This document shows, piece after piece, positions 13,696-58,492 of a stretch of 64,000 bases of DNA (position 1 is the first letter of the stretch; each line of letters begins with the position of its first letter). Below the pieces are notes generated by a model. That model made no database searches. It saw nothing but the letters and a program-made list of their open reading frames with translations, and was not told the origin of the DNA. A program made the position numbers and the translations under genes. The stretch spans positions 62,001-126,000 of the forward strand of contig NZ_JAKNHJ010000002.1 in NCBI RefSeq assembly GCF_022133705.1, given 5' to 3'. This DNA is from Varibaculum cambriense. GTDB taxonomy: Bacteria > Actinomycetota > Actinomycetes > Actinomycetales > Actinomycetaceae.

Positions 13696-13784
13696 GGGTC
13701 GGGCCGTAAAAGCGCTCGGGGGACCCCGGTGAGCCTTGCTTCGCTCAGCTCAAGCCCCCTCTCGCATCTTTTACAGCTCGACCC
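13696..13784 (+). repeat. Dispersed repeat module B, copy 1 (forward)
   Basis: An 89-bp element bounded by inverted arms GGGTCGGGCCGTAAAAG and CTTTTACAGCTCGACCC. The core contains CGCTCGGGGGACCCC, a GAGC..GCTC inner palindrome and CCCCCTCTCGCAT. It matches the elements at 24865, 49018, 56562 and 58292, and is followed by module A. Confidence 0.85.
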
Positions 13785-13811
13785 TTACGTAGGTCATACC
13801 AGCCAGCGTGG

Positions 13812-13907
13812 AGCCTAGGTTTTATCCGAGTGGGCGCGGTGGGCATAAGGATTCGGAAAACGCCGCTACGTTTTCCGAATTCTTGGGCGGGAGGAAAAAC
13901 CTAGGCT
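13812..13907 (+). repeat. Dispersed repeat module A, copy 1 (forward)
   Basis: Outer arms AGCCTAGG and CCTAGGCT enclose GTTTTATCCGAGTGGGCGCG, then GTGGGCATAAG, then an inner palindrome (GATTCGGAAAACG / CGTTTTCCGAATTC), then TTGGGCGGGAGGAAAAA. It lies 27 bp after module B in the menE-menB divergent gap. Confidence 0.85.
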
Positions 13908-13990
13908 TTGCGCGGAAAATGTGGGAGGAAAAACTTCTCTTCCCGCGCACAGAGCGCGAGGCAAAACCTAGGCTCTGCGCAGAAATGACA
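13908..13990 (+). repeat. Tail half-units after module A, copy 1
   Basis: Degenerate half-units of the GGGAGGAAAAAC part of module A with their own arms (for example TGGGAGGAAAAACTTCTC and GCAAAACCTAGGCTC). Comparable tails flank the A modules at 48893 and 56451 on the same side relative to element orientation. Confidence 0.6.
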
Positions 13991-14033
13991 ATACAAGGAA
14001 ATCGGGTAGCAGATTGCGCGATAGGGTGGGGGT

Positions 14034-15125
14034 ATGAGCCAGCTTGCACATGTTTCTGATACTTTCGACGCGCAGCGTTGGGTTCCAGTTCCGGGCTTTG
14101 AAAAGCTAACTGACCTGACTTTTCACCGGGCGGTCGTGAAAGCGGGAGGGGCGGATAATCCTGCTTTAGCGTCCTCGTGCGACTTGAAAGAGCATCAAAA
14201 GCCCTATAAGCCGGGGCGGGATCGCTATCAGCTAACTGACTTAGCCGCCACCGAATTGGCTGATCGCGGAGAAAATGGGGGTAAACTTCCAGTTTTGCGA
14301 ATTGCGTTCGATCGCCCGCAGGTGCGTAATGCTTTCCGTCCGCATACGGTAGATGAACTGCTGGCTTGTCTGGAATATGCGCGCAGCGCCGCCGATGTGG
14401 CAGCGATAATCCTCACCGGGAATGGGCCAAGCGACTCCGATGGTGGCTACAGCTTTTGTTCCGGTGGTGACCAGCGGATTCGCGACCGAGGCGGATATCG
14501 CTACGAGCAGGAGGGCGCCGATCCGGATGTGGAAGTTTCCCAGCGGCGCCAGAATTTAGATTTGGCACGGACTGGACGCTTGCACATTCTGGAGGTGCAG
14601 CGCCTGATTCGAGCGATGCCGAAACCGGTGATTGCAGCGGTTCCCGGGTGGGCTGCCGGGGGCGGACACTCCCTGGTGGTGGTATGTGACCTGGCGCTGG
14701 CCAGCGTAGAACATGCCCGTTTCAAACAAACTGACGCGAATGTAGGATCCTTTGATGCCGGATATGGTTCAGCATTACTGGCGCGGCAGGTCGGGGACAA
14801 ACGCGCGCGGCAAATCTTTTATCTGGCGAACACCTATGATGCCCGGCAAGCCGAAGAATGGGGAGTTATCAACGCGGCAGTGCCGCATCTCCAACTAGAG
14901 ACCGTGGCGCTCGAGTGGGCGCTGACTGTAGCCCGCAAATCCCCGCAGGCTATCCGGATGTTGAAATATGCATTTAACCTGGCAGATGATGGTTTGCTGG
15001 GGCAGCAACTATTCGCCGGGGAGGCAACTCGTTTGGCTTATAGCACCGATGAAGCCGAGGAGGGGCGGCGTGCCTTTTTGGAGCATCGGGAACCGGATTG
15101 GACATCTTTCCCTTATTACTATTAG
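14034..15125 (+). CDS. menB: 1,4-Dihydroxy-2-naphthoyl-CoA synthase
   Basis: Crotonase-fold enzyme closing the second ring of the menaquinone head group from o-succinylbenzoyl-CoA. Motifs: RPQVRNAFRP, oxyanion-hole FCSGGDQRIRD, AVPGWAAGGGHSLVVVCDLA, and GSFDAGYGSALLARQVG. With 363 residues it is about 50-60 longer than common MenB proteins; the extra length lies at the N-terminus and between residues 35 and 80. It precedes menC and menD on the same strand. Confidence 0.93.
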   Translation: MSQLAHVSDTFDAQRWVPVPGFEKLTDLTFHRAVVKAGGADNPALASSCDLKEHQKPYKPGRDRYQLTDLAATELADRGENGGKLPVLRIAFDRPQVRNAFRPHTVDELLACLEYARSAADVAAIILTGNGPSDSDGGYSFCSGGDQRIRDRGGYRYEQEGADPDVEVSQRRQNLDLARTGRLHILEVQRLIRAMPKPVIAAVPGWAAGGGHSLVVVCDLALASVEHARFKQTDANVGSFDAGYGSALLARQVGDKRARQIFYLANTYDARQAEEWGVINAAVPHLQLETVALEWALTVARKSPQAIRMLKYAFNLADDGLLGQQLFAGEATRLAYSTDEAEEGRRAFLEHREPDWTSFPYYY

Positions 15126-15235
15126 GTTTTTTGACGCAGATAGGTCGACAATAGGAAACGTTAGAGTTAACCGGTCAGTGCCAGGTCAAGTGCTATTTGT
15201 GTAAATAGAAGGATTCGAAAGACAACAAGGAAAAC

Positions 15236-16321
15236 GTGATGGCAGGAAACATAAGCGACCCGATGCTAGTGGAGGTACCGCAGGTACAAGTCAGTGACCT
15301 GGGTAAACTATTTGAAAACTCTGAGTTTCCCGCGATCGACATTGACCAGGCGTTGGTATATTCCTTGCCGCTGGTCAACCGCTTCCGCCGAATAATTGTG
15401 CGCGAGGGCGTGCTGTTGCGTTCCGGCAACCGGTGGGGAGAGTTCGCGCCTTTTTGGGATTATGGGCCGCACGAATCAAAACGATGGCTATGGTCAACCG
15501 TCAACGCCCTCACCGAGCCTGAGCCGCAGATAGTGCGAGACAGTGTTCCCGTGAATGTGACCGTGCCGGTGGTATCCCCTAAACGCGCCACGGAAATTGT
15601 GGAGCAAAGCGGAGGCTGCCGGACTGCGAAAGTTAAAGTAGCAGATCGGGGCACGGAACTTGCCGATGATGTAGAACGGATAAAAGCCGTGCGCGCCGCC
15701 CTCGAAAACCAATTCGGCGGAAACTATCGGATTCGGGTAGATGCTAATGGCGCGTGGAACCTGGCGGAAGCAAAGGAAGCGATAGCGGCCTTAGACGAGG
15801 CAGCTGGAGAATTGGAATATGTAGAGCAGCCCTGCAAGAGCGCCCGGGAACTACTGGAATTGCGGGGCGCAACTTCGGTGCCCATCGCGGTTGATGAGCT
15901 GATTCGCCGCTCCCCAGATCCACTCGCCGATTTGCCGGCAGGCTGTGCGGATGTGATGGTGGTGAAAATCCAGCCCCTGGGGGGAGTCTCGGCGGTTATT
16001 GATTTGGCGAAGAAAGCCAATGAACGCGGCCTGGAAGTGGTGGTTTCTTCCGCAGTTGATAGTGCGGTAGGTATCGGATTAGGGGTGCGCGCCGGAGCAG
16101 CAATGACCCGGCTTCCCCATGCCTGTGGCCTGGCCACCAGCCAGCTACTAAAATCCGATGTTTCCCGCCAGCCCTGGCAGGTACGGGACGGTCAACTAGA
16201 GGTACGGGAAGTAGAAATAAACACCGACTTAATTAGTGCTCCTGACAACGATAATCGCCGAGATCTGGTTAACCGTTGGAGTCAGCGGATGCGGGACGTA
16301 GCGGAGGTAGCTAGTCGGTGA
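15236..16321 (+). CDS. menC: o-Succinylbenzoate synthase
   Basis: Enolase-superfamily dehydratase making o-succinylbenzoate. The catalytic lysine pair and metal ligands are visible: KVKVADRG, VDANGAW (Asp), EYVEQPC (Glu), IAVDELIRR (Asp) and VVKIQPLGG (Lys). 361 residues. The start is either GTG 15236 or the next codon ATG 15239; AAGGA at 15228-15232 fits both. Its stop overlaps the menD start (GTGA), showing translational coupling. Confidence 0.92.
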   Translation: MMAGNISDPMLVEVPQVQVSDLGKLFENSEFPAIDIDQALVYSLPLVNRFRRIIVREGVLLRSGNRWGEFAPFWDYGPHESKRWLWSTVNALTEPEPQIVRDSVPVNVTVPVVSPKRATEIVEQSGGCRTAKVKVADRGTELADDVERIKAVRAALENQFGGNYRIRVDANGAWNLAEAKEAIAALDEAAGELEYVEQPCKSARELLELRGATSVPIAVDELIRRSPDPLADLPAGCADVMVVKIQPLGGVSAVIDLAKKANERGLEVVVSSAVDSAVGIGLGVRAGAAMTRLPHACGLATSQLLKSDVSRQPWQVRDGQLEVREVEINTDLISAPDNDNRRDLVNRWSQRMRDVAEVASR

Positions 16322-18495
16322 GCGACGTTTCTTTTCCCTCCACCTCCTCGTGTAGCTCCCAAAATAATCAATCCCCAGACCTGGCGGGAGGGCACCTAGA
16401 ATCAGCCACCTCCTTGGCGCGCCTAGTGCTCAGCGAGTTGGTGCGCGCGGGGGTGCGTGATTTCGTGATTTGTCCGGGTTCTCGTTCTGCGCCCCTAACC
16501 TATGCTTTGGCAGCGTTAGAACAGGCAGGGGTGGTGCGTACCCATGTGCGCCTGGATGAGCGTTCTGCGGCTTTCTTCGCGCTGGGACTGGCCAAATCCG
16601 GTATCTATAAGGACGAGGACGCAGCTTACAATCCGGTAGCCCTAGTGGTCACTTCGGGGACTGCAGTGGCGGAGTTGCATGCCGGATTGCTGGAGGCTTT
16701 CCACTGCGGTATCCCGCTGATTGTCTTGAGCGCCGATCGTCCCCGTACCGCTCGCGGTACCGGAGCGAACCAAACTACCTGGCAGGAAAGGATTTTTGGG
16801 ACTGCCTGCCCGGCGGCTCTAGATATCGACGCTAGCGAGGACGCCCTGCCAGTAGTAAAAGACCGTTTGAATGCAGCTCTCGCTCAGGCCGGGGGACCCG
16901 GGGAGGGCGGACACGGGCAGCGCTGCCCGCTACATATCAATTTGTGTTTTGCGCCGCCCTTGGTGACTTCAAATACTTGGCAGATTCCCCCCGAGCTGCA
17001 AGCTCTTACCTTAGAGCAAGGGCAAAGCGCGCCCTCCTCGCAGTCATCTTGGAAAAATCAGATAGTTGCGGATGGTGAGGGTGAACCTCCCCGAAAAAAC
17101 GCAAAAACCGTGGTGGTTTTGGCCGATCAATGTCCTCCGCAGGTGACGCGGACAGCGCAAAGTTGGGGGCTCCCGGTGTTGGCGGAACCAACAGTTACCC
17201 TGAAACCGGGCAACGCGGTGCAGATCGCGCATGCTCCGCAGGTGCTTCCTGCCCTCGCTGATGAAATAGAGCAGGTGATTATAGCTGGTCATGCCACTTT
17301 GTCGCGTCCGATAAGTGCGTTGCTTTCCCGGGACGATATTCCTATCTATTGCCTGCCTAGTTTAGGAGCGAAAACTAATCTCACCGGAGAATATGTTTCT
17401 ACCACCACCGCGCAGGTAGATTCCGTTTTTCCCGCGGCCGCTAGCCCTGCCTGGTTGGCACGATGGCGCCAGGCAGCGCAAGCGGTCGAACGTGCCTACC
17501 GCACAGGTGTTGATCGTCGGGCAGTAACCGTGTGGCAAAACGCCAACTACGCGGCGATCGATCCCCGAGAATTGCCGCAGGTAGCGAAGGATATACCGGT
17601 TACGCCCTCGGAAAAAATACCTAATCTCGGTTTTGCTACCGCCGGTGAAGAGAAACACGGCGAGAATGAAGCTGCCCACCGCCTCCGTATGTCCCTTCCC
17701 GAAAGCGCTCCGGAACTAGAAGGTAGCCTGCGGGAACTGGAAATGGGGATCGATCCCTACGCTTTCGCCCGTATTTATGAGGATGTGTATGACGCGTGGG
17801 TTAACCGTGACCCTGATTCAGCTCGGGACAGTGGAACGAAGGCTAAAAAAGCTCTAAACGGCGCGGATAATCTCCTGGATAGCGGCGCCGTAGGCAGCGG
17901 TGAGAGCATACCTGCCCAGCTAGACGATAAGCAGGTGAGTGCTGCCGGTGCTCCTCCGCTGACTATGCTCGGTGCCTCTAATACGATTCGTGCTTTCGAT
18001 TTGGCAGCGCGGGGAGATCGGGGGATTACCTATTGCGCGAATCGCGGCTTGGCAGGGATCGATGGAAATATCGCGACTGCCTTGGGACTAGCCTCCGGAA
18101 CCGGGCAGGCGGTGCGGCTGATCGCCGGAGATTTAACTTGCCTGCATGATTTAACCGGGTTGCTCACCGGGGCATTGGAGGCCGCGCCGGTCTTACAGGT
18201 GTTGGTACTCAGCGATGGGGGAGGACGCATTTTCTCTACCCTTGAACACGGTGAACAGGAGAACCAGAAAGTCTTTGACCGCTATTTTTTGACGCCGCAA
18301 GATTTCGACCTTTCCTTGCTCGCGGCTGGTTTGGGTTGGGATTACCGCTGCGCAAACGACATAGAGGAACTGAAAAGGATTCTGTGCGAGAATCCGCGCC
18401 GGGAAATCGTGGAGATTAATGCTTATTTGCCGGATTTGCGGGCTCGCCGTGCCGCTTTAGAATCTGAAATCCGCCGGGAACTAGCTGCCCTTTGA
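16318..18495 (+). CDS. menD: SEPHCHC synthase MenD
   Basis: Thiamine-diphosphate enzyme that joins isochorismate and 2-oxoglutarate. The N-terminal part carries CPGSRSAPL and RLDERSAAFFALG (with the catalytic glutamate region), then LSADRP and GANQT. The ThDP-binding part near the C-terminus shows RGLAGIDGN and IAGDLTCLHD. At 725 residues it is about 130-150 longer than typical MenD. The excess is a hydrophilic, poorly conserved stretch at about residues 420-545 between the middle and ThDP domains. The start is GTG overlapping menC. Confidence 0.92.
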   Translation: MSDVSFPSTSSCSSQNNQSPDLAGGHLESATSLARLVLSELVRAGVRDFVICPGSRSAPLTYALAALEQAGVVRTHVRLDERSAAFFALGLAKSGIYKDEDAAYNPVALVVTSGTAVAELHAGLLEAFHCGIPLIVLSADRPRTARGTGANQTTWQERIFGTACPAALDIDASEDALPVVKDRLNAALAQAGGPGEGGHGQRCPLHINLCFAPPLVTSNTWQIPPELQALTLEQGQSAPSSQSSWKNQIVADGEGEPPRKNAKTVVVLADQCPPQVTRTAQSWGLPVLAEPTVTLKPGNAVQIAHAPQVLPALADEIEQVIIAGHATLSRPISALLSRDDIPIYCLPSLGAKTNLTGEYVSTTTAQVDSVFPAAASPAWLARWRQAAQAVERAYRTGVDRRAVTVWQNANYAAIDPRELPQVAKDIPVTPSEKIPNLGFATAGEEKHGENEAAHRLRMSLPESAPELEGSLRELEMGIDPYAFARIYEDVYDAWVNRDPDSARDSGTKAKKALNGADNLLDSGAVGSGESIPAQLDDKQVSAAGAPPLTMLGASNTIRAFDLAARGDRGITYCANRGLAGIDGNIATALGLASGTGQAVRLIAGDLTCLHDLTGLLTGALEAAPVLQVLVLSDGGGRIFSTLEHGEQENQKVFDRYFLTPQDFDLSLLAAGLGWDYRCANDIEELKRILCENPRREIVEINAYLPDLRARRAALESEIRRELAAL

Positions 18496-18503
18496 CCCAA
18501 GTT

Positions 18504-19886
18504 TTACGCCTGGAGGGCGCGGTAGAGAGGTGACATTTTGGTTTCGGTTTCGGCCAGTTCGCGCTGGGGATCAGAATCTGCCATGATTCCCGCCCCAGCT
18601 ATCAGTCGGTAAGTGTCAGCGCGAGCAGGGTTGCGCTGCGCGCACCGCAGGGCAATCGCCCACTCGCCCTCGCCACCAGCATCCATCCAACCGATTGGGG
18701 CGGCGTAACGGCGCCGATCCATAGCTTCGAGGGCGGACAGACGTTCGGCAGCAACTTCGCGGGGTTTGCCACAAACTGCTGCCGTGGGATGGAGCGCCGC
18801 TGCCGCACGCAGAGAAGTAACTGCCTGTTCTGCAAGGTTCTCGGCGGTAATATCGGTTGCCAAATGGGTAACATACCCCAGGTGCAGCAGGCGCGGGGCA
18901 GGTACCTGTAAATCTAAGTTCAGTTCGGTCAGCGATTCCTGGGCGCTTTGTACCGCTAAGCGATGCTCTAACTGCTCTTTGGGGTCGTTTAACAGACGTT
19001 GTTCCTGGGAAGGAACGGCGGAGCCTGCGAGGACGCGACATAGCAGCTTCCCTTCATTTACACTAGCTAGCATTTCGGGGCTGGCTCCCACCAGGTCACC
19101 AATCGCATAAGTCCAGCAAGTAGGGTATTTGTCGGCCAAGTATTTGGTGACCCTGGTCAAGGAAACATCGCGGTCAAAGGCTAGTTCTTTATCCCGGGCA
19201 AGCACGATTTTTTCCGCGCTTCCGGCGCGGATTTCTGCTACCGCGCGCCCGACTGCCGCCTTCCAGGCTTCTGGTTTTAAATGGGGGTACGTTTCGCGAA
19301 GTACCTGCGCCGGGCTGGAAGGCGATAGCGGGGATGATTGAGCAGTATGCGCTGCTGTAGGCTTCTCCGCTTCCTGTGCATTCGCCCGGCGTCCTTGGAA
19401 ATCTGCTTGCCTTGCCTGCCAGCGAGCTTGCCACAGCCAGGTGTGAGAGCCGCTGGAAACTACCGCTAAAGTCGGCACTAGTAGCAGTGAGGGGGTAGTG
19501 GCAGTAAATCCGAAACTGCCCAAAACTAGCGGCCAGTTTAGCTTTCCTGCTTCCGTATGCTTGACCCCCGTACTTCCCTCTGAAATGTCGCTCGAGTTAC
19601 CAGCAGTATTCTGAGCGTGCTTGCACAAATCCCGCCACGCGTCCTCGGCTTTAGAAAAAGCATTATCGCCGCTAAAACTGGCCTGCCAAGCGATTCCTAA
19701 ACCTGCTAACTTGAGCCTCGACCCGCTCCAAACGGTAAAGGTATCCGGGGAAGTGCTTTCCGTTGAAACTAGCCGATGGTTTTGCTCTAAAAGCCCTATT
19801 ACCTGCTCTAAGTGGCATTCATAATCGCTTAGCCGGGAGACACGGTATTGCAAAACTCCGTTTACAGGCAGGCTAGATGGACGCAC
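18504..19886 (-). CDS. menF: Isochorismate synthase
   Basis: Chorismate-binding enzyme (MenF/EntC/DhbC type), 460 residues, converting chorismate to isochorismate for MenD. The C-terminal chorismatase fold shows SAEKIVLARDKEL, HPTAAVCGKPR, the RRRYAAPIGWMDAGGEGEW block and AGAGIMADSDPQRELAETE. It converges on menD with an 8-bp gap. Menaquinone is favoured over siderophore because of the men neighbours. menA, menG and menH are not in the window. Confidence 0.92.
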   Translation of the reverse strand: MRPSSLPVNGVLQYRVSRLSDYECHLEQVIGLLEQNHRLVSTESTSPDTFTVWSGSRLKLAGLGIAWQASFSGDNAFSKAEDAWRDLCKHAQNTAGNSSDISEGSTGVKHTEAGKLNWPLVLGSFGFTATTPSLLLVPTLAVVSSGSHTWLWQARWQARQADFQGRRANAQEAEKPTAAHTAQSSPLSPSSPAQVLRETYPHLKPEAWKAAVGRAVAEIRAGSAEKIVLARDKELAFDRDVSLTRVTKYLADKYPTCWTYAIGDLVGASPEMLASVNEGKLLCRVLAGSAVPSQEQRLLNDPKEQLEHRLAVQSAQESLTELNLDLQVPAPRLLHLGYVTHLATDITAENLAEQAVTSLRAAAALHPTAAVCGKPREVAAERLSALEAMDRRRYAAPIGWMDAGGEGEWAIALRCAQRNPARADTYRLIAGAGIMADSDPQRELAETETKMSPLYRALQA

Positions 19887-20041: not shown

Positions 20042-20051
20042 TAAACATGGT

Positions 20052-24693: not shown

Positions 24694-24718
24694 AATTGTC
24701 CTTCAGTTGGGGCAAGCG

Positions 24719-24820
24719 GCGGGGGATAGTTTTTCCTCCCACCCAAGAATTTGAGAAACGTAGCGACGTTTCCCAAATTCTTATGCCCACCGCACCTACT
24801 CGGATAAAACCTCCCCCCGC
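24719..24820 (-). repeat. Dispersed repeat module A, copy 2 (reverse)
   Basis: Reverse-oriented copy with arms GCGGGGGATAG and CCTCCCCCCGC. The inner palindrome is TTTGAGAAACG / CGTTTCCCAAATTC and the ACTCGGATAAAACC end is preserved. It follows the tuf terminator. Confidence 0.8.
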
Positions 24821-24864
24821 ATGCGGTACGGTGTTCTGCACCCGTAAGTGCTGCGGCTGTAAAT

Positions 24865-24955
24865 GGGCTGACCAGGTAAAAATGCGAGAGGGGGCTAGAT
24901 CCGAGCGAAGCAAGGCTCACTGGGGTCCCCCGAGCGCTTTTACAGCGGCAGCCCC
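24865..24955 (-). repeat. Dispersed repeat module B, copy 2 (reverse, divergent)
   Basis: Reverse copy with the conserved core ATGCGAGAGGGGGC .. GAGCGAAGCAAGGCTC .. GGGGTCCCCCGAGCGCTTTTAC. The outer arms differ from other copies (GGGCTGACCAGG against CAGCGGCAGCCC) but still pair in part. 25 bp further sequence to 25117 holds the promoter of the RelBE-like pair and nothing else recognised. Confidence 0.75.
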
Positions 24956-25775: not shown

Positions 25776-25901
25776 TTAATGAGAGCAAGAAAGGTCGAGC
25801 GCGGCGCTCCCTGATTGCGGCAGACAGTTTCACCGCGCCCACTCGGATAAATTTTTCCCGCTCAAGTATGGTGCCTGCGTAAGGGTATTTCTTGGCAGGC
25901 T

Positions 25902-26009
25902 GCGCGGGAACTAGGTTTTATCCGATTAGGCTAGGCGGGCGTATAACTCTGAAAATGCGTAGAGCATTTTTAGAGTTTTTGGGCGGGAGGAAAAACCTAG
26001 TTTCCGCGC
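25902..26009 (+). repeat. Dispersed repeat module A, copy 3 (forward, diverged core)
   Basis: Arms GCGCGGGAACTAGG and CCTAGTTTCCGCGC pair with one G-U. The GGTTTTATCCG start and GGGCGGGAGGAAAAACC end are retained. The inner palindrome sequence has changed to ACTCTGAAAATGC / GCATTTTTAGAGT yet still pairs. No B module accompanies it. Confidence 0.8.
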
Positions 26010-31724: not shown

Positions 31725-31802
31725 GTTTTCGATAGCTTTTTAAAGGGATCGCTAAGGCCTAAGATCTGGCAAGATTTTTCGTCGGGTTCCTGATAGCTGT
31801 AA

Positions 31803-31854
31803 GGCGCGGGGAGAGTTTAATCGGGTAAGTGCCCGGGTAAACTCTCCCCGCGCC
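31803..31854 (+). terminator. Hairpin terminator of the S10 operon, duplicated element copy 1
   Basis: GGCGCGGGGAGAGTTTA and TAAACTCTCCCCGCGCC form a 17-bp stem enclosing a second CGGG/CCCG hairpin, followed by TTTGG. An almost identical element lies at 33805, so this sequence flanks the first MFS gene on both sides. Confidence 0.85.
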
Positions 31855-31965
31855 TTTGGTATTTTCTTGCCAGTAGGGCAAACCTGATGAGGAAATACCT
31901 TTATGTTAGTTCCGTAGCAAGATAAAATAGATAGCTTCCTTTTTCGATCACAGAAGGTTTCAGCA

Positions 31966-33618
31966 GTGGCAAATTACCGTGGGAAAACTCCGCTGGCGCA
32001 GTTAAGTGAAGAAACACTGCGCCAGATGGTGCAGGAAACTCCGCCTGCAGGCAAAAAGCGCGGAGTTATTAGCTTAACCGTTTTGGCCGCTCTGGAATCT
32101 TTGGTTTTCGGCTACGATATCGGGGTTATTTCCGGAGCCTTGCCCTATATGTGTATGCCGTATGGAGCTGGCGGGATGAGGATTACCCCTGCACAAGAGG
32201 GCGCTATCGGCGGTATTCTTCCCTTGGGCGCTGCATTTGGGGCGCTATTGGGAGGACGGCTGTCGGATCGTTACGGGCGTAAGCACGCCATGATCCCACT
32301 AACGGTGCTGTTCGTGGTAGGCACCCTCGGGAATGCCTTTGCCCCCCATATTTGGGTGATGTATCCATTTCTCCTAATCCTAGGGTTTGCAATTGGAGCT
32401 ACTTCGGCTATTGTGCCGGTGTTCTTGGCAGAATCTGCACCCCAGCGCATCCGGGGTACCATTTTAGCGGTTAATCAGCTGATGATTGTAACGGGACTGC
32501 TATTGGCTTTCTCGATGAATGCGATTATTAATTTCTGCTACGGCGGGCCTCGGATCATCGTGAAATCGGATCCGGCGGGAGTAGTAAAGACCGGTGAATA
32601 TTCCTGGGATACGTTGAACCGGTTGGTGGCTAACCACCTGGGCAGTGATGACGTGCAAAAAGTGCACGATTTTCTTTCCAATATGGTGATTGCCGGCGGT
32701 AATGGGACTGCCTGGCGCTGGATGGTTGTCGCCTGTTCTGCGCCGGCAATCGCCATGTGGCTAGGAATGCAGCTGATTCCAGAATCTTCACGCTGGTACC
32801 TATTACAGCAAGAGGTTTATGCTGCTATCGGCTCCCTTAAACGGGTCCGTGACCCGAAGAAAGATGGGGATCTCGCTATTGAGCTCCTGGAAATGGTACA
32901 GGCTCGTCAACGCCAAGGTCTTGGGAAAGAAGCTACTTTCCGGGAGGTGATCGGCACTCCCTGGCTGCGGAAACTGATGTTCGTGGGGATTTTTCTGGCA
33001 ATTGCCAACCAAACCACCGGGGTAAATACGGTTTTGTATTACGCGCCGAAAGTTCTCAACGTTGCGGGCATGGGAAGTTCTGCTGCGATTTTCGCGCAGG
33101 TTGCGAACGGCTTAATGAGCGTCGTGGGATCGGCAATCGGTTTGATCCTGATTACCAAGTTCCGCCGGCGCACTATTTTGATCTGGGATGTGGCCTTAGT
33201 TGGCATTAGCTTGCTTGGAATCGCCTTGGTCTTCCAGTTTGCGATTACTCCGCATATTTCCGACTCAGCGGTGCCTGCTTGGGCAGGTTACCTAGTCTTG
33301 GCGTTGATGTCGATTTTTTTGCTGGCGGTGCAGTCTTCGAACGGCACCGTGGTGTGGACGATGCTAGGTGAAATGTTCCCCGCGGATGTACGGGGGATTA
33401 TGAATGGTACTGCCATTTTCTGTATGTGGATCGTCAGCGCCTTTATTACCTGGACCTTTCCCCCGATGGTAGCTGCTTTGGGGCCAGGACCAACCTATGC
33501 CTTATACGGGGTATTGAACCTGATCATTGCGGTGGTGCTGTTCAAGATAATGCCGGAAACATCTGGGCGTTCCTTGGAGGAAATCGAATCCTATATGCAG
33601 CACATTTATAGTAAGTAA
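31966..33618 (+). CDS. MFS sugar (inositol-type) transporter 1
   Basis: Sugar-porter-family proton symporter, 550 residues with 12 predicted membrane helices. Family marks: GYDIGVISGALPY, GGRLSDRYGRK, PESSRWYLLQQ, TGVNTVLYYAPKV and PETSGRSLEEIE. Compared with ordinary sugar porters there is a polar insertion of about 55 residues (189-246) in the external loop between helices 5 and 6. GTG start after AGAAGG. It is about 80% alike in visible motifs to the transporter at 35257, with the same insertion. Substrate is inferred from the iol-like context only. Confidence 0.9.
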   Translation: MANYRGKTPLAQLSEETLRQMVQETPPAGKKRGVISLTVLAALESLVFGYDIGVISGALPYMCMPYGAGGMRITPAQEGAIGGILPLGAAFGALLGGRLSDRYGRKHAMIPLTVLFVVGTLGNAFAPHIWVMYPFLLILGFAIGATSAIVPVFLAESAPQRIRGTILAVNQLMIVTGLLLAFSMNAIINFCYGGPRIIVKSDPAGVVKTGEYSWDTLNRLVANHLGSDDVQKVHDFLSNMVIAGGNGTAWRWMVVACSAPAIAMWLGMQLIPESSRWYLLQQEVYAAIGSLKRVRDPKKDGDLAIELLEMVQARQRQGLGKEATFREVIGTPWLRKLMFVGIFLAIANQTTGVNTVLYYAPKVLNVAGMGSSAAIFAQVANGLMSVVGSAIGLILITKFRRRTILIWDVALVGISLLGIALVFQFAITPHISDSAVPAWAGYLVLALMSIFLLAVQSSNGTVVWTMLGEMFPADVRGIMNGTAIFCMWIVSAFITWTFPPMVAALGPGPTYALYGVLNLIIAVVLFKIMPETSGRSLEEIESYMQHIYSK

Positions 33619-33804: not shown

Positions 33805-33854
33805 GCGCGGGGAGAGTTTAATCGGGTAAGTGCCCGGGTAAACTCTCCCCGCGC
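33805..33854 (+). terminator. Duplicated hairpin element, copy 2
   Basis: Same sequence as 31803-31854 over about 48 bases, with stem GCGCGGGGAGAGTTTA and its complement, followed by TCTTTG and a T-rich stretch. Confidence 0.8.
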
Positions 33855-33893
33855 CTCTTTGTTTTTCTTCTTATATACTCGTCTCACCATTAA

Positions 33894-35256: not shown

Positions 35257-36906
35257 ATGGAAATTAATAAGAAAAAAACTCCTCTTAATGAGTTGAGTAA
35301 AGATGAACTGCGCGAAATGGTGCAAGAAGCGCCAGCCTCCGGTAAACACCGGGGAGTTATCGCCGTGGCAGCAGTGGCTACGCTAGGCTCCCTGCTATTC
35401 GGGTATGACACCGGGGTTATCTCCGGAGCCTTGCCCTATATGTATATGCCACATGGTGCAGGCGGCATGGGGATTACCCCGGCTCAAGAGGGTGCGATTG
35501 GCGGTATTCTTACCCTTGGCGCAGCCTTCGGAGCGCTATTTGGAGGGCGGCTCTCCGACCGTTATGGACGCCGGCACAACATCATCATGCTGGCGATTCT
35601 GTTCCTGATCGGCGCCCTCGGAAATACTTTCGCCCCCAATATTTGGGTAATGTATCCGTTCCGCCTGATCCTGGGGCTAGCCGTAGGTGGCGCCTCGGCA
35701 ACCGTGCCGGTATTCCTGGCGGAAACTGCGCCTAAGCGTATCCGCGGTACCATCGTGGCTGTTGACCAGCTGATGATTGTGGTCGGCCAGTTGTTAGCCT
35801 TCTCGATGAATGCCATCATTAACTCTGCTCACGGCGGCCCGCAGATTACCGTCAAATCGGATCCTGCTGGGGTAGTGAAGGCTGGAGAATACTCCTGGGA
35901 TGCCTTAAACCAGATCGTTTCTAAGCACCTGGGTAGCTCTGATGCCCAAGCAATCCACGAATTCATCTCGAATATGGCGGTTTCCGCCGGTAACGGCTCT
36001 GCCTGGCGTTGGATGATTGTGTTGTGTTCTGTGCCTGCCGTTGCTCTGTGGCTAGGGATGCACCTGATGCCGGAGTCTTCGCGTTGGCATGTACTGCAGC
36101 AGGAAGTCTACGCCGCTATTGGATCCTTGAAGCGGGTACGTGACCCCAAGAAAGATGGGGATCTTACCGAGGAACTATACGAGATGGTCGAGGCTCGCCA
36201 GAATGAAAAACATGGCAAGAAGGGTACTTTCCGCGACGTAATGAACACGCCGTGGCTGCGTAAACTAATGTTCGTTGGTATATTCCTGGCGATTGTCAAC
36301 CAGACTACCGGGGTAAATACCGTTATGTATTACGCCCCGAAAGTCTTGGGTATTGCCGGTATGGGAACTTCTGCCGCGATTACTGCGCAGGTAGCTAACG
36401 GCGTGATGAGCGTGGTGGGTTCGGCAATCGGCTTGATTCTGATTACCAAGTTCCGCCGGCGCACCATTTTGATCTGGGACGTCACCCTGGTAGGTATCCT
36501 GCTGCTGGGAATTGCTGTAATCTTCCAGTTTGTGATTGCTCCGCATGACGCAGCCGGCAGCGTGCCGGTGTGGGCAGGGTACTTGGTGCTGCTAATGATG
36601 TCGCTATTCATGCTGGTGGTGCAGTCTTCGAACGGTACCGTAGTCTGGACGATGCTGGGTGAGATGTTCCCCGCGAATGTACGCGGAATTATGAATGGTA
36701 CTGCCATCTTCTGTATGTGGATTATGAACGCCATCATTACCTGGACCTTCCCGCCGATGATTGCCGCTCTGGGCGGTGGACCCACCTACGCAATGTACGG
36801 GGTACTAAACCTGATCATTGCAGTGGTGCTATTCAAGATCATGCCGGAAACCTCCGGACGGTCTTTGGATGAAATCGAAACCTACATGGAGCACATGTAC
36901 AGCTAA
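35257..36906 (+). CDS. MFS sugar (inositol-type) transporter 2
   Basis: Sugar-porter-family carrier of 549 residues and 12 helices with GYDTGVISGALPY, GGRLSDRYGRR, PESSRWHVLQQ, TGVNTVMYYAPKV and PETSGRSLDEIE. It shares with transporter 1 the long insertion after NAIIN (about residues 188-245). Operon with the MocA-type dehydrogenase suggests uptake of that enzyme's substrate. Homology extends past the stop codon into the downstream terminator, showing that gene plus 3' region were duplicated together. Confidence 0.91.
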   Translation: MEINKKKTPLNELSKDELREMVQEAPASGKHRGVIAVAAVATLGSLLFGYDTGVISGALPYMYMPHGAGGMGITPAQEGAIGGILTLGAAFGALFGGRLSDRYGRRHNIIMLAILFLIGALGNTFAPNIWVMYPFRLILGLAVGGASATVPVFLAETAPKRIRGTIVAVDQLMIVVGQLLAFSMNAIINSAHGGPQITVKSDPAGVVKAGEYSWDALNQIVSKHLGSSDAQAIHEFISNMAVSAGNGSAWRWMIVLCSVPAVALWLGMHLMPESSRWHVLQQEVYAAIGSLKRVRDPKKDGDLTEELYEMVEARQNEKHGKKGTFRDVMNTPWLRKLMFVGIFLAIVNQTTGVNTVMYYAPKVLGIAGMGTSAAITAQVANGVMSVVGSAIGLILITKFRRRTILIWDVTLVGILLLGIAVIFQFVIAPHDAAGSVPVWAGYLVLLMMSLFMLVVQSSNGTVVWTMLGEMFPANVRGIMNGTAIFCMWIMNAIITWTFPPMIAALGGGPTYAMYGVLNLIIAVVLFKIMPETSGRSLDEIETYMEHMYS

Positions 36907-36952: not shown

Positions 36953-36983
36953 ACGCGGGGGCGAGCTCAGCTCGCCCCCGCGT
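36953..36983 (+). terminator. Terminator after MFS transporter 2
   Basis: ACGCGGGGGCGAGCT and AGCTCGCCCCCGCGT, a perfect 15-bp stem around one base, followed by TTTGCG. Paralogous to 33662-33692. Confidence 0.82.
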
Positions 36984-37044: not shown

Positions 37045-37152
37045 GGCGCCGGGAAAGGTTTTATCCGAGTGGGCGCGGTGGGCATAAGAATTCGGAAAAT
37101 GCCTGAGGTGTTTTTCCGAATTCTTGGGCGGGAGGAAAACCTTTCCTGGCGC
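37045..37152 (+). repeat. Dispersed repeat module A, copy 4 (forward)
   Basis: Arms GGCGCCGGGAAAGG and CCTTTCCTGGCGC pair with one G-U. The conserved GTTTTATCCGAGTGGGCGCG, GTGGGCATAAGAATTCGG and TTCTTGGGCGGGAGGAAAAC blocks are present. It lies between converging genes, without a B module. Confidence 0.85.
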
Positions 37153-37178
37153 GATCGGATTACGCGGCGCACTCGCGG

Positions 37179-48754: not shown

Positions 48755-48853
48755 CGCCTACTCCTTAATTCTCAGCTGTTCTGGATACCACCTTATCTAC
48801 AATCATTCGCGTGTGGGGGCTAGCTTGCCGTCGTTGCGGGTCTGGCTCGGGTT

Positions 48854-48892
48854 GCGCGGGGGATAAGTTTTTCCTCCTGCCGTTTTCCGCGC
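48854..48892 (-). repeat. Tail half-unit beside module A, copy 5
   Basis: GCGCGGGGGATAAGTTTTTCCTCC-type half-unit ending GTTTTCCGCGC, on the same side of module A (relative to its orientation) as at 13908 and 56384. Confidence 0.6.
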
Positions 48893-48992
48893 GGAGCCTG
48901 GGTTTTTCCTCCTGCCCAAGAATTCGGAAAACGTAGCGGCGTTTCCCGAATTCTTATGCCCACCGCACCCACTCGGATAAAACCTAGGCTCC
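48893..48992 (-). repeat. Dispersed repeat module A, copy 5 (reverse)
   Basis: Arms GGAGCCTGGG and CCTAGGCTCC with one G-U. Conserved core in reverse, with inner palindrome AATTCGGAAAACG / CGTTTCCCGAATT and CACTCGGATAAAACC end. Confidence 0.85.
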
Positions 48993-49017
48993 CCGCTCGC
49001 TGGTACCGCCTACGTAC

Positions 49018-49106
49018 GGGTCGGGTGGTAAAAGATGCGAGAGGGGGCTTGAGCCGAGCGAAGCAAGGCTCACCGGGGTCCCCCGAGCGCTTTTACGGCC
49101 CGACCC
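49018..49106 (-). repeat. Dispersed repeat module B, copy 5 (reverse)
   Basis: Arms GGGTCGGGTGGTAAAAG and CTTTTACGGCCCGACCC around ATGCGAGAGGGGGCTT, GAGCCGAGCGAAGCAAGGCTC and GGGGTCCCCCGAGCG. It lies 25 bp after module A in the luxS-nrdH divergent gap. Confidence 0.85.
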
Positions 49107-49347
49107 GCTACAGGAGGTAAAGTCCGGCCGGGTGCGCGGACGACTGCGACACGCCGAAGGAAGTTTTTATCCACAATTTTGGTGGAACTGCTCACCAATC
49201 ATCTCGAACTAGATTTCACCCTAAAAGGCAGGCAGGTGCCGGGTGTCCAGCTAGTAGATTGTTCGGGGTCGCGGGGTATCCCCAGAAATTCGCCCTCTTT
49301 CCACCGGTTATCCCCAAACACATTATCTTGGGGTGCTGGTGTTGAGT

Positions 49348-52408: not shown

Positions 52409-52531
52409 GGCGCTGGAGGGCGTCGTAGCAGAGTCGGGAGACCATTTGTGAGCTTGCTCCGGTGCGGGGTTAGCGGCCGGGACAGTCAATCCTAAAGGCT
52501 GCCGGCAGGACTGAGACTTGCACCCAGCGCC
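52409..52531. other. Structured convergent intergenic region between nrdE and the SDR gene
   Basis: GGCGCTGG directly after the nrdE stop (52409-52416) pairs with CCAGCGCC at 52524-52531, closing a 107-base region that contains GAGC/GCTC and CAGTC/GACTG hairpins. It has no T-run. It could be a complex terminator or an unrecognised RNA; I could not match it to a known family. Confidence 0.4.
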
Positions 52532-52540
52532 ACCTGCAGT

Positions 52541-53317: not shown

Positions 53318-53381
53318 ACCTTTACGATAACCCGATTAAGGCAGTTGTGGGCAAAGGGGTTAAGAGATAAACCGGTAAATG

Positions 53382-53418
53382 TTTTGACCCGCCTGCTTAT
53401 AAGACAGGCGGGTCAAAA
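53382..53418. terminator. Terminator after nrdF
   Basis: TTTTGACCCGCCTG and CAGGCGGGTCAAAA form a perfect 14-bp stem with a 9-base loop, followed by A-rich/T-rich sequence; likely works for nrdF transcripts and insulates the SDR promoter. Confidence 0.75.
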
Positions 53419-53498
53419 AGCATTGTTTAGATCTGGCGCCGGGACACGAGGTCATGATCCATAAGAATCAGCCAGCGTCCTCGCCAAACGAAATAAAC

Positions 53499-54485
<987 letters not shown>

Positions 54486-54594
54486 TCATCCTCTGAGTTA
54501 ATTCGCGCAGCCGCCTCGTAAAGTTTGGGAGTTGCCCCGGGGCTACCATGCCAGTCTACAAGGCAAAGTAAAGTGCGGCATAGAATAGGAAACT

Positions 54595-56325
54595 ATGCGG
54601 GATGCAGATGAGCTAATTCGAAAAACAAAATCACTAGACGGTCGCTCCTATGGGGGCTATAAACAACTGCTTGGGCAATGGAGTTTCGGGGACTTTAGTT
54701 TCTCTATCGACCGGGTACAGTCTGATCCCTTCGCCCCGCCTTCAGCCTGCCGGATATTGGTGCCATTGGATACTGCCCAGATCCCCTCCGAGATCGCTCT
54801 AGATAAGTTAGCGCGGATAGCTGCCGGTGATTTCTTGGCACGGCGCGCCCGGAAGATTTTTGGGGCGAGGCGTTCGGGTGGGAAATCTGAAGCACAACTG
54901 CGGATCGCGCCGGTAGGGCAAGAAATCCTCCCGCGCTCCTCGGTAACCTTGAATGAAGAAGGGATGGAACTGCGCGTCCAGGTACCGTTTCCGGCGGCAG
55001 GCCGGCGGATTCTAGGACGTAATTTTGCGCGTTTCTTGGACTATGACCTGTGCGAATTGGTTTATAAAACCGTATGTTTTGGCGAGGACGACGGCCCAGA
55101 TTTAGCTGACCTTACTCGCCATATTCACACGCTCAAAGATCATGCGGCACTGCAAAAGATTCTTCATGAGCGTGGCTGGGTGGCTTTCGTGGCGGATGGG
55201 GCGCTGCTGGCTCGAGCCTCCGGGATCAGTGATTTACCGATGACAGACGCGGTGCCCTTCCAGCTACCTAAGGTATTAGGGGAGGATACGCCCTCGTCCC
55301 TGGTGCAAACTATAGAGCTGCCCTATAGCGGGAAAATATCCGGAATGGCGATCCCCAAAGGAATCACTGTGATTGTAGGGGGTGGCTATCACGGTAAATC
55401 TACCCTGCTAGAAGCCTTAGAGCGGGCGGTTTATCCCCATATTCCTGGGGATGGGCGCGAACTGGTAGCCACTTTACCCGATGCGATAAAAGTGCGCGCC
55501 GAGGATGGAAGGGCTATAACTGCCACTGATATTTCCCTATTTATCGGCGCGTTGCCCGGCGGGGCTGATACGCGACAGTTCTTTACTGAAAATGCCTCGG
55601 GTTCAACTTCACAGGCCGCAGCGATTACTGAAGCCATAGAATGCGGTTCGCGTGCGCTACTGATTGACGAAGATACCTCGGCTACCAACCTGTTGTTGCG
55701 CGATAGTCGGATGCGGCAGCTGGTGCGCAGCGAGCCGATTATTCCCCTAATCGACCGGGTAGGAGGCATTCGGGAGGAACTAGGGGTGTCCACCATTATG
55801 GTGATGGGAGGATCGGGAGATTTCCTGGATTTAGCCGACCAGGTGTTATTACTGGAAAACTATATTCCTTACGATGCCACCGCCAGGGCGCGGGAAGTAA
55901 GTAGGGGAGAGGCCGCGGCAAGTAGTACGGATAGCGCAGCCCCTGACTGGCCGCAAGAGGCAGTGCGCAAACGGCTCCTGCTATCTTGCCCGCCTCCACC
56001 TGCGGGGCGACGCGAAAAAACTCGCGCGGAAGGCACCGCCACTTTGCGTTTGAATCGGGAAGAAATCGATATTTCCGCCCTTGCTCAAGTAGTGGATCCC
56101 GGTCAAGCAGAAGCGATTGCTTACGCGATTCGAGCTTTGGTTACTGATGCTAACGGCAAAGAAACGATTGCGGATGCCTGCTCCCGCTTCGCTGCCGAGT
56201 TTACTTCCTCTAGCTGGCAGGCGTTCGCCGCTGGGCGTCACCCGGCGTTCCTGGCCGCGCCCCGACTCCAAGATATTTTCGCGGCGCTTTGCCGTTACCG
56301 GTACCTAAAAGCCCGCTCTGCCTAA
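54595..56325 (+). CDS. ABC-class P-loop ATPase (COG3044-type)
   Basis: Soluble protein of 576 residues. The Walker A is VGGGYHGKSTLLEALE (about residues 261-276), followed by HIPGDGRE, SGSTSQAAAITEAIE as the signature-like region, ALLIDEDTSATNLL as Walker B and a DQVLLLENY segment. No membrane helices and no permease partner. The family is widespread but its role is not established, so I give no function. ATG start without a strong ribosome site, divergent from nrdF. Confidence 0.87.
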   Translation: MRDADELIRKTKSLDGRSYGGYKQLLGQWSFGDFSFSIDRVQSDPFAPPSACRILVPLDTAQIPSEIALDKLARIAAGDFLARRARKIFGARRSGGKSEAQLRIAPVGQEILPRSSVTLNEEGMELRVQVPFPAAGRRILGRNFARFLDYDLCELVYKTVCFGEDDGPDLADLTRHIHTLKDHAALQKILHERGWVAFVADGALLARASGISDLPMTDAVPFQLPKVLGEDTPSSLVQTIELPYSGKISGMAIPKGITVIVGGGYHGKSTLLEALERAVYPHIPGDGRELVATLPDAIKVRAEDGRAITATDISLFIGALPGGADTRQFFTENASGSTSQAAAITEAIECGSRALLIDEDTSATNLLLRDSRMRQLVRSEPIIPLIDRVGGIREELGVSTIMVMGGSGDFLDLADQVLLLENYIPYDATARAREVSRGEAAASSTDSAAPDWPQEAVRKRLLLSCPPPPAGRREKTRAEGTATLRLNREEIDISALAQVVDPGQAEAIAYAIRALVTDANGKETIADACSRFAAEFTSSSWQAFAAGRHPAFLAAPRLQDIFAALCRYRYLKARSA

Positions 56326-56350
56326 GTCTCTCGTTAATTCCCCCGCGAAT

Positions 56351-56450
56351 GTCGGGTCGCGGCCGGTAAAAGCGCTCGGTTGAGCGCGGAGGTGAAGTTT
56401 TTCCTCCTGCCGTTTTCCGCGTGGAGCCTGGGTTTTTCCTCCCGCCGTGT
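56351..56450 (-). repeat. Truncated module B plus tail half-units beside module A, copy 6
   Basis: GTCGGGTCGCGGCCGGTAAAAGCGCTCGG (56351 onward) is a broken end of a B module in forward orientation. It is followed by two half-units of the GTTTTTCCTCC type (56384-56420 and 56421-56450). Confidence 0.6.
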
Positions 56451-56557
56451 GCGCGGGGGAGAAGTTTTTCCTCCTGCCCAAAAATTTGGAAAACGTAGCG
56501 ACGTTTTCCAAATCTTGCGCCCACCTAGCCTGCTCGGATAAAACTTCTCCCCCACGC
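56451..56557 (-). repeat. Dispersed repeat module A, copy 6 (reverse)
   Basis: Arms GCGCGGGGGAGAAG and CTTCTCCCCCACGC; inner palindrome ATTTGGAAAACG / CGTTTTCCAAAT, which differs from GAATTC in other copies but still pairs. Confidence 0.85.
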
Positions 56558-56561
56558 ATAA

Positions 56562-56649
56562 GGGTCGGGCGGTAAAAGATGCGAGAGGGGGCTTGATCTG
56601 AGCGCAGCGAGGATCACCGGGGTCCCCCGAGCGCTTTTACCACCCGACC
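56562..56649 (-). repeat. Dispersed repeat module B, copy 6 (reverse)
   Basis: Arms GGGTCGGGCGGTAAAAG and CTTTTACCACCCGACC. The inner GATCTGAGCGCAGCGAGGATC has changed at both ends relative to GAGCC..GGCTC copies and still pairs. Four bases separate it from module A. Confidence 0.85.
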
Positions 56650-56696
56650 TGAAGTAAGGTGTTAGATGAATTTCAGATGACTAAGGCGGGGGCAGG

Positions 56697-58184
56697 TTAG
56701 TTGGCTTGGTATTGCTGGGCGGCGGCTAGTTCTCGGCGGCGACGGTCAGCGAACTCGGCGCGAACTTTGGCATTATGCGGAGTGCGGCGTACCAGGAACG
56801 ACACTGCAGCAATAACCCCAATCCACAGGAGGCTCGCCAACATGGCATACAGGGTTGCTGGATCGAGGGCGAGGACGAACACCATCGCCACGATAAACAC
56901 ACTGATTACCGCGATAGAAAAATATCCACCGGGCATGGCAAATATTGATGCTTCATGTTTTTGGGGCAGACGGCGACGAAACTCTACGTAGGCGGCCACT
57001 ATCATCACCCATACGAACATAAATAGCACCGAAGCCACCGACGTTACCAGGGTAAATGCTTCCATTACCGTGCCGCCTACTGCCATCAGGGCAATGGAGG
57101 TAAGCAAGAACAGACAAGTGACTATCAGTGCATTTAAAGGTACGGAGCGACGGGAAAGCTTTCGGAAAAGCTTCGGGGCGTCACTGCGCAGCGCCATGGC
57201 GTACATCATCCGGGAGGTGGAATAAACTCCCGAGTTACACGAAGAGGCGGCCGAAGTCATTACCACCAGGTTCACTAGCGACGCCGCAAATACTAGCCCT
57301 ACTAGGGAGAATAGTCCTACGAAGGGAGAGGATTCCGGGTCGAGAGAATCCCAAGGAGTAACCGACATGATCGCTGCTAACGCCAAAACATAGAACAACA
57401 ACACCCGCAACGGAATCGAGTTAATCGCTTTGGGGAGAGATTTTTCTGGGTCTTTGGTTTCGGCGGCGGTAGTGCCGACCAGTTCGATTCCTACGAAACT
57501 AAAGATTGCTAGCTGGAATCCGCCCAAGAATCCGGATAAGCCATTCGGGAAGAATCCGGAACCAGTAACTCCCGGGTGTGACCAAAGATTAGTGATGGTG
57601 GCGCGCTGGCCATCGGGAGCAGTAAACCCGATAATCACCATTACGGTTCCGCAGCAGATCAGGGCAATAATCGCGATAATTTTTATCATCGAAAACCAGA
57701 ACTCGGTTTCTCCGAAGGCTTTCACCGTTAGGGCGTTAAGGAAAAACAACAGCGCCACGGTAGCAATCGCGGGAATCCATCGCGGCAGGTCTGGCCACCA
57801 AAAATTGAAATAACCGGCAATCGCGATCACTTCGGCGGTTCCGGTAACTATCCAACACAGCCAATACGTCCATCCCACAACGAAACCGGCACCTGGCCCT
57901 AAAAGGTCGGTGATGAAATCGGCGAAAGTGCCATAGCGGTGATTGGAAACTAACAATTCCCCCATGCATCGCATCACCAGGAATAGCACGGCTCCGATAA
58001 TGGCGTAAACCAACAGCACTGAAGGACCCGCCAAGTGAATCGTGCGTCCGGATCCCATAAACAGACCGGTGCCGATGGCTCCACCGATCGCGATTAACTG
58101 GATATGCCGATTCGAGAGGTTGCGTTGCAATCCCCCCGAATGACTATTAATAATGTCCTCAACCTCGACTGGTTTATTCGGCAT
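56697..58184 (-). CDS. cycA: Amino-acid permease, CycA-type D-serine/D-alanine/glycine transporter
   Basis: APC-family proton symporter of 495 residues with 12 membrane helices. The N-terminus LQRNLSNRHIQLIAIGGAIG and the GLSGFLGGFQLAIFSFVGIELVG block match E. coli CycA closely from memory; substrate assignment rests on that likeness. Confidence 0.88.
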   Translation of the reverse strand: MPNKPVEVEDIINSHSGGLQRNLSNRHIQLIAIGGAIGTGLFMGSGRTIHLAGPSVLLVYAIIGAVLFLVMRCMGELLVSNHRYGTFADFITDLLGPGAGFVVGWTYWLCWIVTGTAEVIAIAGYFNFWWPDLPRWIPAIATVALLFFLNALTVKAFGETEFWFSMIKIIAIIALICCGTVMVIIGFTAPDGQRATITNLWSHPGVTGSGFFPNGLSGFLGGFQLAIFSFVGIELVGTTAAETKDPEKSLPKAINSIPLRVLLFYVLALAAIMSVTPWDSLDPESSPFVGLFSLVGLVFAASLVNLVVMTSAASSCNSGVYSTSRMMYAMALRSDAPKLFRKLSRRSVPLNALIVTCLFLLTSIALMAVGGTVMEAFTLVTSVASVLFMFVWVMIVAAYVEFRRRLPQKHEASIFAMPGGYFSIAVISVFIVAMVFVLALDPATLYAMLASLLWIGVIAAVSFLVRRTPHNAKVRAEFADRRRRELAAAQQYQAN

Positions 58185-58291
58185 TGGTGTTCCCTTATCG
58201 ATCGCTTTTCGTTTCCTCGATTTTAAGCGCTAAAACCCAAAACTAAGCAAACTGATGCCCATGTGCGCGTGATTGGCTTTCCTCTGGTATC

Positions 58292-58380
58292 GGGTCGGGC
58301 CGTAAAAGCGCTCGGGGGACCCCGGTGATCCTCGCTTCGCTCGGCTCAAGCCCCCTCTCACATCTTTTACGGCTCGACCC
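58292..58380 (+). repeat. Dispersed repeat module B, copy 7 (forward)
   Basis: Arms GGGTCGGGCCGTAAAAG and CTTTTACGGCTCGACCC around CGCTCGGGGGACCCCGGTGA and CCCCCTCTCACAT. Upstream of cycA, 4 bases before module A. Confidence 0.87.
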
Positions 58381-58384
58381 TAGT

Positions 58385-58492
58385 GCGCGGGGGTTAGGTT
58401 TTATCCGAGTGGGTGCGGTGGGCATAAGAATTCGGAAAACGTCGTTACGTTTTCCGAATTCTTGGGCGGGAGGAAAAACCTAGCCCCCGCGC
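58385..58492 (+). repeat. Dispersed repeat module A, copy 7 (forward)
   Basis: Arms GCGCGGGGGTTAGG and CCTAGCCCCCGCGC with one U-G. Full conserved core and inner palindrome GAATTCGGAAAACG / CGTTTTCCGAATTC. Confidence 0.87.

Follow-up and report, generated by a model that had tools for sequence, protein, structure and literature searches.

A genus-specific family of structured hairpin repeats near gene 3' ends in Varibaculum

What kind of element occupies gap after gap between the genes of Varibaculum cambriense? The question is raised by a 64,000-nucleotide stretch of its genome (contig NZ_JAKNHJ010000002.1, positions 62,001 to 126,000; this whole stretch is called the window below), in which a preliminary description had noticed a palindromic repeat of two modules, A and B, at seven intergenic loci. 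We find that the modules form a genus-specific, non-coding, dispersed repeat family. Both are covarying hairpins: their stems differ but stay paired, and their loops barely change. Our preferred reading, to which we assign a probability of about 0.6, is that of a genus-specific structured hairpin repeat, comprising A with its core subtypes, B, a further module X and long forms, that lies near gene 3' ends. The behavior of its arms and cores is the unusual part of the family, which is best read as a structured repeat that moves slowly and is probably parasitic.

Two covariance models were built, R1 for A (30 sequences) and R2 for B (11 sequences). The seven A modules of the window score 92-130 bits with R1, and one inverted pair (13681-13949 and 48853-49121) is 87% complementary over 269 nt, spanning B, linker, A, and tail; because of these two results, the repetition in the window is far beyond chance. 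The A and B sites of the preliminary description were confirmed by R1 and R2 matches at the same loci, and the fragment of B, at 56360-56389, by self-comparison of the window. Likewise, B precedes A in the orientation of the element at 5/5 window loci that have both, with 2-39 nt between model ends, and on the far side of A, tails of A half-units are present at three loci (about 13.9, 48.9, and 56.4 kb), as had been described.

The window genome (G000, the own genome below) has 2,228,794 bases on 73 contigs and was compared with five congeners (G001 to G005). A 233-nt DNA query finds 62 matches in it. R1 finds 85 matches at 67 distinct places, the other 18 being opposite-strand hits of the same place, and R2 finds 19. 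In the congeners, there are 41 (G002), 56 (G001), 59 (G003), 62 (G005), and 63 (G004) matches to R1, and 18-24 to R2; for these genus counts, at most 150 candidates were scored per genome, and a place hit on both strands counts twice in the totals. Thus, the matches extend well beyond the window, genome-wide and in 6/6 genus genomes, as a true repeat family had been expected to do. Among 59 genomes, the 233-nt query has matches in 6, every one in the genus. Among 200 genomes of the family Actinomycetaceae, scanned with the A model only, under stricter filters and with 19 candidates scored per genome, R1 has matches in 8, namely the six of the genus and 2 of the 194 others (G158 and G198, one A match each). 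A 291-nt query has no match in phage and plasmid DNA collections. Four viral contigs share one 16-mer, but R1 has no match in their four stretches (expectation values up to 1), and two further sequence patterns have no match in viral contigs. In Rfam, the window has 0 matches above the gathering score and four weak ones below it, at 48840-49130. The family may be undescribed, to go by a few literature searches, some of them made under an assumed genus name.

Both modules, A of about 108 nt and B of about 90 nt, follow one plan. The outer stem varies from locus to locus or from unit to unit, the internal loops are strongly conserved and, in A, rich in G, and an inner hairpin completes the module. 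In A, the outer stem has about 16 pairs plus three pairs adjoining the loop, and the asymmetric internal loop, which encloses the inner hairpin, carries conserved G-runs on both sides (GAGTGGGTGCGGTGGGC-like on the 5' side, GGGCRGGAG on the 3' side). From the reading of islands, a second core subtype, A2, is recognized by CAGGCTAGGYGGGCG. In a long form of A, the 5' loop is larger by about 60 nt, and a long form of B, about 150 nt, has a long inner stretch that is similar between species (e.g., L049 4943-5093 in G003). Several small hairpins apparently lie inside this stretch. Module X, about 111 nt and of the GGGGCGGATTTATGCCG type, was found with a small profile in the fetched stretches. The modules recur in two composite units, B-linker-A-tail and X-linker-A2. 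The B-A order, which had been taken as a fixed architecture, does not hold genome-wide: only 9 of the 19 own-genome B copies are followed by A on one strand, whereas 2 are in the arrangement B, X-type, A, 1 is followed by X, 2 stand tail to tail with A, and 5 are alone.

The pairing of the stems is maintained through change. In the own-genome rows of A, 96.6% of cells pair, and in 30 of 35 pairs both partners have changed, with pairing retained, in at least one row; the covariation score is 0.475 compared with 0.160 for shuffles and at most 0.110 for slid alignments. The corresponding values for own-genome B are 95.9% of cells, 14 of 26 pairs, and a score of 0.338 compared with 0.110 (shuffles) and at most 0.074 (slid). 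The loop-adjoining pairs of A also covary (TCC/GGA, GCC/GGC, GTC/GAC). These alignments were fitted to the covariance models and so lean towards structure; that of A has 82 rows, including 13 opposite-strand overlap rows, dropped for the G-U counts below, and one weak hairpin (31801-31856), probably no member, which is included in those counts as well.

The stems also carry a strand signal. Read in the orientation of the element, the 12 outer pairs of A show 49 G-U against 13 A-C combinations over 69 places in the own genome (sign test, P = 1.9e-6) and 54 against 20 over 64 copies at congener loci and in the two singletons outside the genus (P = 3.1e-4). The outer stem of B gives 10:1 in the 19 own copies and 8:0 in 15 others. 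When copies were found by loop pattern without a structure model, the ratio was 41:12 over 73/74 copies (P = 1.3e-5). An initial strand count (106:35 for outer and 151:23 for inner A pairs) is not used, because a fixed U-G pair inflated the inner figure. Since strand-symmetric mutation with a double-stranded DNA cruciform would be expected to give 1:1, the folded form under selection is probably one strand only, the one that reads in the orientation of the element, either as RNA or as single-stranded DNA. Strand-biased deamination is another possible cause of the excess.

Islands of modules adjoin the 3' ends of genes, and convergent gaps hold most of them. The own genome has 51 islands; for the 47 with both neighbors known, the gaps are convergent in 25 cases, tandem in 19, and divergent in 3, so the gap types are not used alike, contrary to the preliminary description. 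In the compared regions of the six species, 25/107 convergent, 23/344 tandem, and 10/131 divergent gaps of at least 30 nt are occupied, with orthologous gaps counted repeatedly. The median distance from a stop codon to the element that it faces is 59 nt over 126 gene ends. Genes were called with a purpose-written open reading frame script and no standard gene-calling program.

The history of the copies was followed by comparing gaps on the 177.8-kb window contig with stretches of the five congeners (contig coordinates equal window coordinates plus 62000). Where a gap holds an element in one species and its orthologue was found, it is mostly occupied in the others too, often by other modules. 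At window 58185-58551, G002 has a gap in which B and A are reduced to stubs, the scar of a deletion, and its gaps at window 48755, contig 51120, and contig 57870 are likewise read as scars. At contig 53892, G002 and G003 have element-free gaps that are neither a clear scar nor a clear never-occupied site. Orthologous gaps lacking the element, which the preliminary description had named as a mark of mobility, therefore do exist, but those read appear for the most part to be deletion scars and not never-occupied sites. At window gap 48755, the place of the half-unit tail seen in other species is taken in G004 by a complete A; the half-unit tails thus probably represent remnants of deleted A copies. 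Altogether, turnover of copies is evident and clean insertion is not.

Turnover also affects parts of modules. Different cores sit in like arms at window gap 13603 (own, G003, and G004 versus G001) and at contig 142749, where own and G003 have one core, G002 and G004 the other, and the arms are kept in all four. The same is seen at window gap 56326 (own versus G003), where the arm type is common at other loci and the opposite orientation may reflect replacement and not a flip. At window gap 48755, the core swap is a long A in G005, read by eye. Cores are also found inverted: at window gap 36907, the orientation is plus in own, G003, and G004, minus in G001 and G002, and one of each in G005, and a B core at position 29594 of contig C12 is plus in own and minus in G002. 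A systematic count started from the A modules in orthologous gaps that score above 50 bits, 43 in all; 4 of these were dropped as their core pattern did not parse. Arms are at least 82% identical in 23 of the 68 same-gap species pairs; among these 23, cores are at most 85% identical in 10 and in opposite orientation in 3, with two pairs in both groups.

The two single A copies outside the genus (L182 1501-1610 in G158 and L183 1501-1605 in G198), which belong to two different genera of the family, lie beside patchily distributed genes. In G158, the neighboring methyltransferase gene is present in 3/10 genomes, and homology with G169 stops close to where the gene flanking the element ends. The neighbor in G198 has no close relative in 34 congeners of that genome, the best being 41% identical over most of its length and another 55% identical over the last third. 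Filled-versus-empty comparison at both singletons gave no clean insertion site. These copies probably came by horizontal transfer with the transferred DNA.

A mechanism can be proposed to go with the structured-repeat reading. The selected form would be one strand, RNA or single-stranded DNA. Core exchange would result from gene conversion or template switching, both from copy to copy and from arm to arm. Quasipalindromes are known sites of template switching (PMC7202029), and between arms it would also mend stems; the G-U bias argues that such mending does not explain everything and that the folded single strand matters. Copies would be lost by deletion at stems and half-units. The family would thus be a slowly moving parasite that spreads rarely and is tolerated at 3' ends, and some copies may act as RNA hairpins in 3' untranslated regions (3'-UTRs). 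A bolder idea, which we regard as a long shot, is that A and B are hairpin-borne cassettes, with the arms as a resident landing stem and the conserved core exchanged and flipped via single-stranded RNA or DNA by machinery other than a Y1 HUH transposase or reverse transcriptase. If true, this would be a new spreading route for short repeats, with the G-rich loop as the recognized part. The family offers natural material for studying the part that template switching and gene conversion play in the change of short hairpin repeats, and for testing whether selection acts at the RNA level on hairpins near gene ends.

Several observations weigh against the structured-repeat reading. The strand signal is uneven: the inner stem of A has no significant G-U excess (8:3 own, 11:5 others), and that of B leans the opposite way in the own genome (3:8), not elsewhere (5:2). 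By context, the loop-pattern copies give 15:6 in convergent gaps and, in small numbers, 5:0 in tandem sense (n = 8) and 5:3 in tandem antisense (n = 11) orientation. Divergent gaps also show the excess, 10:1 over 8 copies, largely from two loci in several species; since no neighboring gene reads into the element there, this does not fit read-through RNA. Similarly, modules in tandem gaps have no sense-strand bias (12 sense versus 19 antisense), which speaks against a simple 3'-UTR read-through RNA. Stem covariation could arise in part from quasipalindrome repair without selection. Arms are less than 82% identical in 45 of the 68 same-gap pairs, they have their best other-species match at the same gap in only 23/36 cases (cores 15/36; ties counted), and some arm types recur at several loci, so that arms are not fully locus-bound. 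Finally, neither a clean insertion site nor a target duplication was recognized in the orthologous gaps read.

Dense families of palindromic repeats in bacteria are commonly explained by the transposase associated with repetitive extragenic palindromic (REP) sequences (RAYT, or TnpA-REP) or as miniature inverted-repeat transposable elements (MITEs) derived from insertion sequences (ISs). For REP or bacterial interspersed mosaic elements (BIMEs) proper, in which RAYT, a Y1 HUH transposase, mobilizes palindromes on single-stranded DNA, the family has the high copy number, the intergenic position mostly downstream of genes, and the inverted pairs, and its stem G-T pairing also matches the published account (PMC3733652). 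A REP unit, however, measures 20-40 bp and is tagged by GTAG or CGTC on one side, sitting downstream of genes with G-T pairs in its stem (PMC3733652), whereas our units have 90-108 nt, and by inspection no such tag is conserved at one end of A (108 nt, 30 copies) or B (90 nt, 11 copies). The REP/BIME- or MITE-like character proposed in the preliminary description stands for the dispersed palindromes found genus-wide, the paired-unit islands, and the 3'-end bias, but not for the Y1 partner: PF01797 has 0 matches in 6/6 genus genomes, while the same search was positive in 5/14 controls. The family therefore lacks both the RAYT and the tag of REP. Lagging-strand orientation bias is a mark of IS200/IS605-type mobile hairpins, and in G003 (dnaA at 1.1 kb, terminus assumed opposite), there is no replication-strand preference, with 13 versus 12 among the 25 best A copies of 59. 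We consider REP/BIME proper very improbable. Even less credible is a retrotransposed structured RNA, comparable to a short interspersed nuclear element, that spreads via a resident reverse transcriptase; an RNA form would agree with the G-U excess, but RVT_1 (PF00078) occurs in 3/6 genomes only, without a match in own, G002, and G005, and copies occur in all six. Y1 transposase and reverse transcriptase, the only families searched genome-wide, were accordingly rejected as general partners (0/6 and 3/6 genomes). A MITE, the non-autonomous derivative of a DDE-transposase IS with terminal inverted repeats, would account for small, palindromic, dispersed modules in several subfamilies and for B-linker-A-tail recurring as a unit of about 270 nt. 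Against it, variation is greatest in the ends, the outer arms, where the changes compensate each other in pairs; ends bound by a transposase would behave in the opposite way. Target duplications were not recognized in the gaps read, and an autonomous parent was not seen, though the genome-wide searches covered Y1 and reverse transcriptase families only. This origin seems unlikely to us.

A host function is a doubtful explanation to about the same degree. Were the modules functional terminators or stabilizers of mRNA 3' ends kept by host selection, their closeness to stop codons, their excess in convergent gaps, the conservation of structure, and the G-U bias would follow. In addition, genes facing an element less often have a U-tailed hairpin of their own (10/73 versus 95/329; shuffled control, 23/402) when lengths are not matched, but the difference is gone after length matching (17/126, about 13%, versus 11%). 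The elements have no U-tract, with at least 5 T in 10 nt at 19/322 element ends versus 1182/13848 background windows, and their content and orientation change between species, several copies being lost in G002. An intrinsic terminator in the strict sense, a stem followed by a U-tract, was rejected on the count of element ends and the length-matched test.

The features of the window are collected in Table 1.

Table 1. Repeat modules and fragments in the window, with position, strand, and basis of assignment
Feature	Position	Strand	Basis	Remark
Module B	13697..13786	+	R2, 110.2 bits	
Module A	13806..13913	+	R1, 119.7 bits	Arms common to G001, G003, G004 at orthologous gap; G001 core is of other subtype
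Tail of A half-units	13914..13985	+	Window self-comparison	Probably remnants of deleted copies; complete extra A at comparable tail position in G004, gap 48755
Module A	24716..24823	-	R1, 106.5 bits	
Module B	24863..24953	-	R2, 88.2 bits	
Degenerate A fragment	25831..25864	-	Window self-comparison	
Module A	25902..26009	+	R1, 92.3 bits	Second core subtype (A2-like)
Module A	37045..37153	+	R1, 98.7 bits	In G001 and G002, core in opposite orientation between similar arms
Tail half-unit of A	48854..48888	-	Window self-comparison	Complete A copy nearby in G004
Module A	48889..48996	-	R1, 120.4 bits	
Module B	49016..49105	-	R2, 108.3 bits	
B fragment	56360..56389	+	Window self-comparison	
Tail half-units of A	56384..56446	-	Window self-comparison	
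Module A	56451..56557	-	R1, 114.7 bits	A2 core; G003 copy at orthologous gap has A1 core in same arms
Module B	56560..56649	-	R2, 105.2 bits	
Module B	58293..58382	+	R2, 105.3 bits	Stub only in G002
Module A	58385..58492	+	R1, 130 bits	Stub only in G002

Other features were observed near the modules. At 31801-31856 and 33805-33856 of the window lies a near-identical pair of GC-rich hairpins (GCGCGGGGAGAGTTTA...TAAACTCTCCCCGCGC), perhaps ordinary terminators; both are similar to the A outer stem, and the one at 31801-31856 is a weak R1 match (32.9 bits). A hairpin at 36953-36983 (ACGCGGGGGCGAGCTCAGCTCGCCCCCGCGT), just before the A module at 37045 and recognizable in all five congeners, has the look of a genuine terminator beside the repeat. 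Two genes of about 550 amino acids (31966-33618 and 35257-36906), about 3.3 kb apart, are 74-81% alike over two 300-nt stretches. Elsewhere in the own genome, a type I restriction specificity gene and a DUF3800 gene lie, with wide gaps, between two A copies of opposite orientation (L061 4494-7681; G000:C13:28493-31680).

Comparison with known systems places the family apart from each of them. With REP, BIME, and REPIN elements and their RAYT (PMC3733652, PMC2817692, PMC3116915), it shares many dispersed palindromes, pairs in opposite orientation, a position downstream of genes, and G-T pairs in stems. Its units, however, are two to five times longer and have conserved internal loops in place of a tagged hairpin, the genomes of its genus have no Y1 match, and its stems covary while its cores swap and invert. 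Prokaryotic MITEs (PMC10969869) are similarly small, palindromic, and intergenic, with no protein seen, but here the terminal repeats of A vary, no parent IS was seen in genome-wide searches covering the Y1 and reverse transcriptase families, and no target duplication in the gaps read. BOX, RUP, and SPRITE are pneumococcal repeats that are over-represented between convergent genes, are structured if transcribed, and have been argued to be slow parasites (PMC3049150). These families, too, scarcely extend beyond a single species and those closest to it (repeats related to BOX also occur in Streptococcus suis), and the convergent-gap excess, the possible RNA structure, and the slow-parasite reading are common to both; they differ in module scheme, arms with an exchangeable core are not mentioned in the parts of that source consulted, and the two are set apart by description, not by sequence. 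Palindromic GC clusters of yeast mitochondria (PMC4478555) show structural constraint together with mergers and shuffling of units. These mitochondrial elements, of 42 nt in the case of GC42, keep their stems and vary their loops, whereas in A and B the stems vary in compensating pairs and the loops are kept. Set against the usual explanations of dense palindromic repeats, the family thus combines 41-85 model matches per genome and no RAYT partner with kept loops, stems that drift in compensating pairs, and cores that swap and flip.

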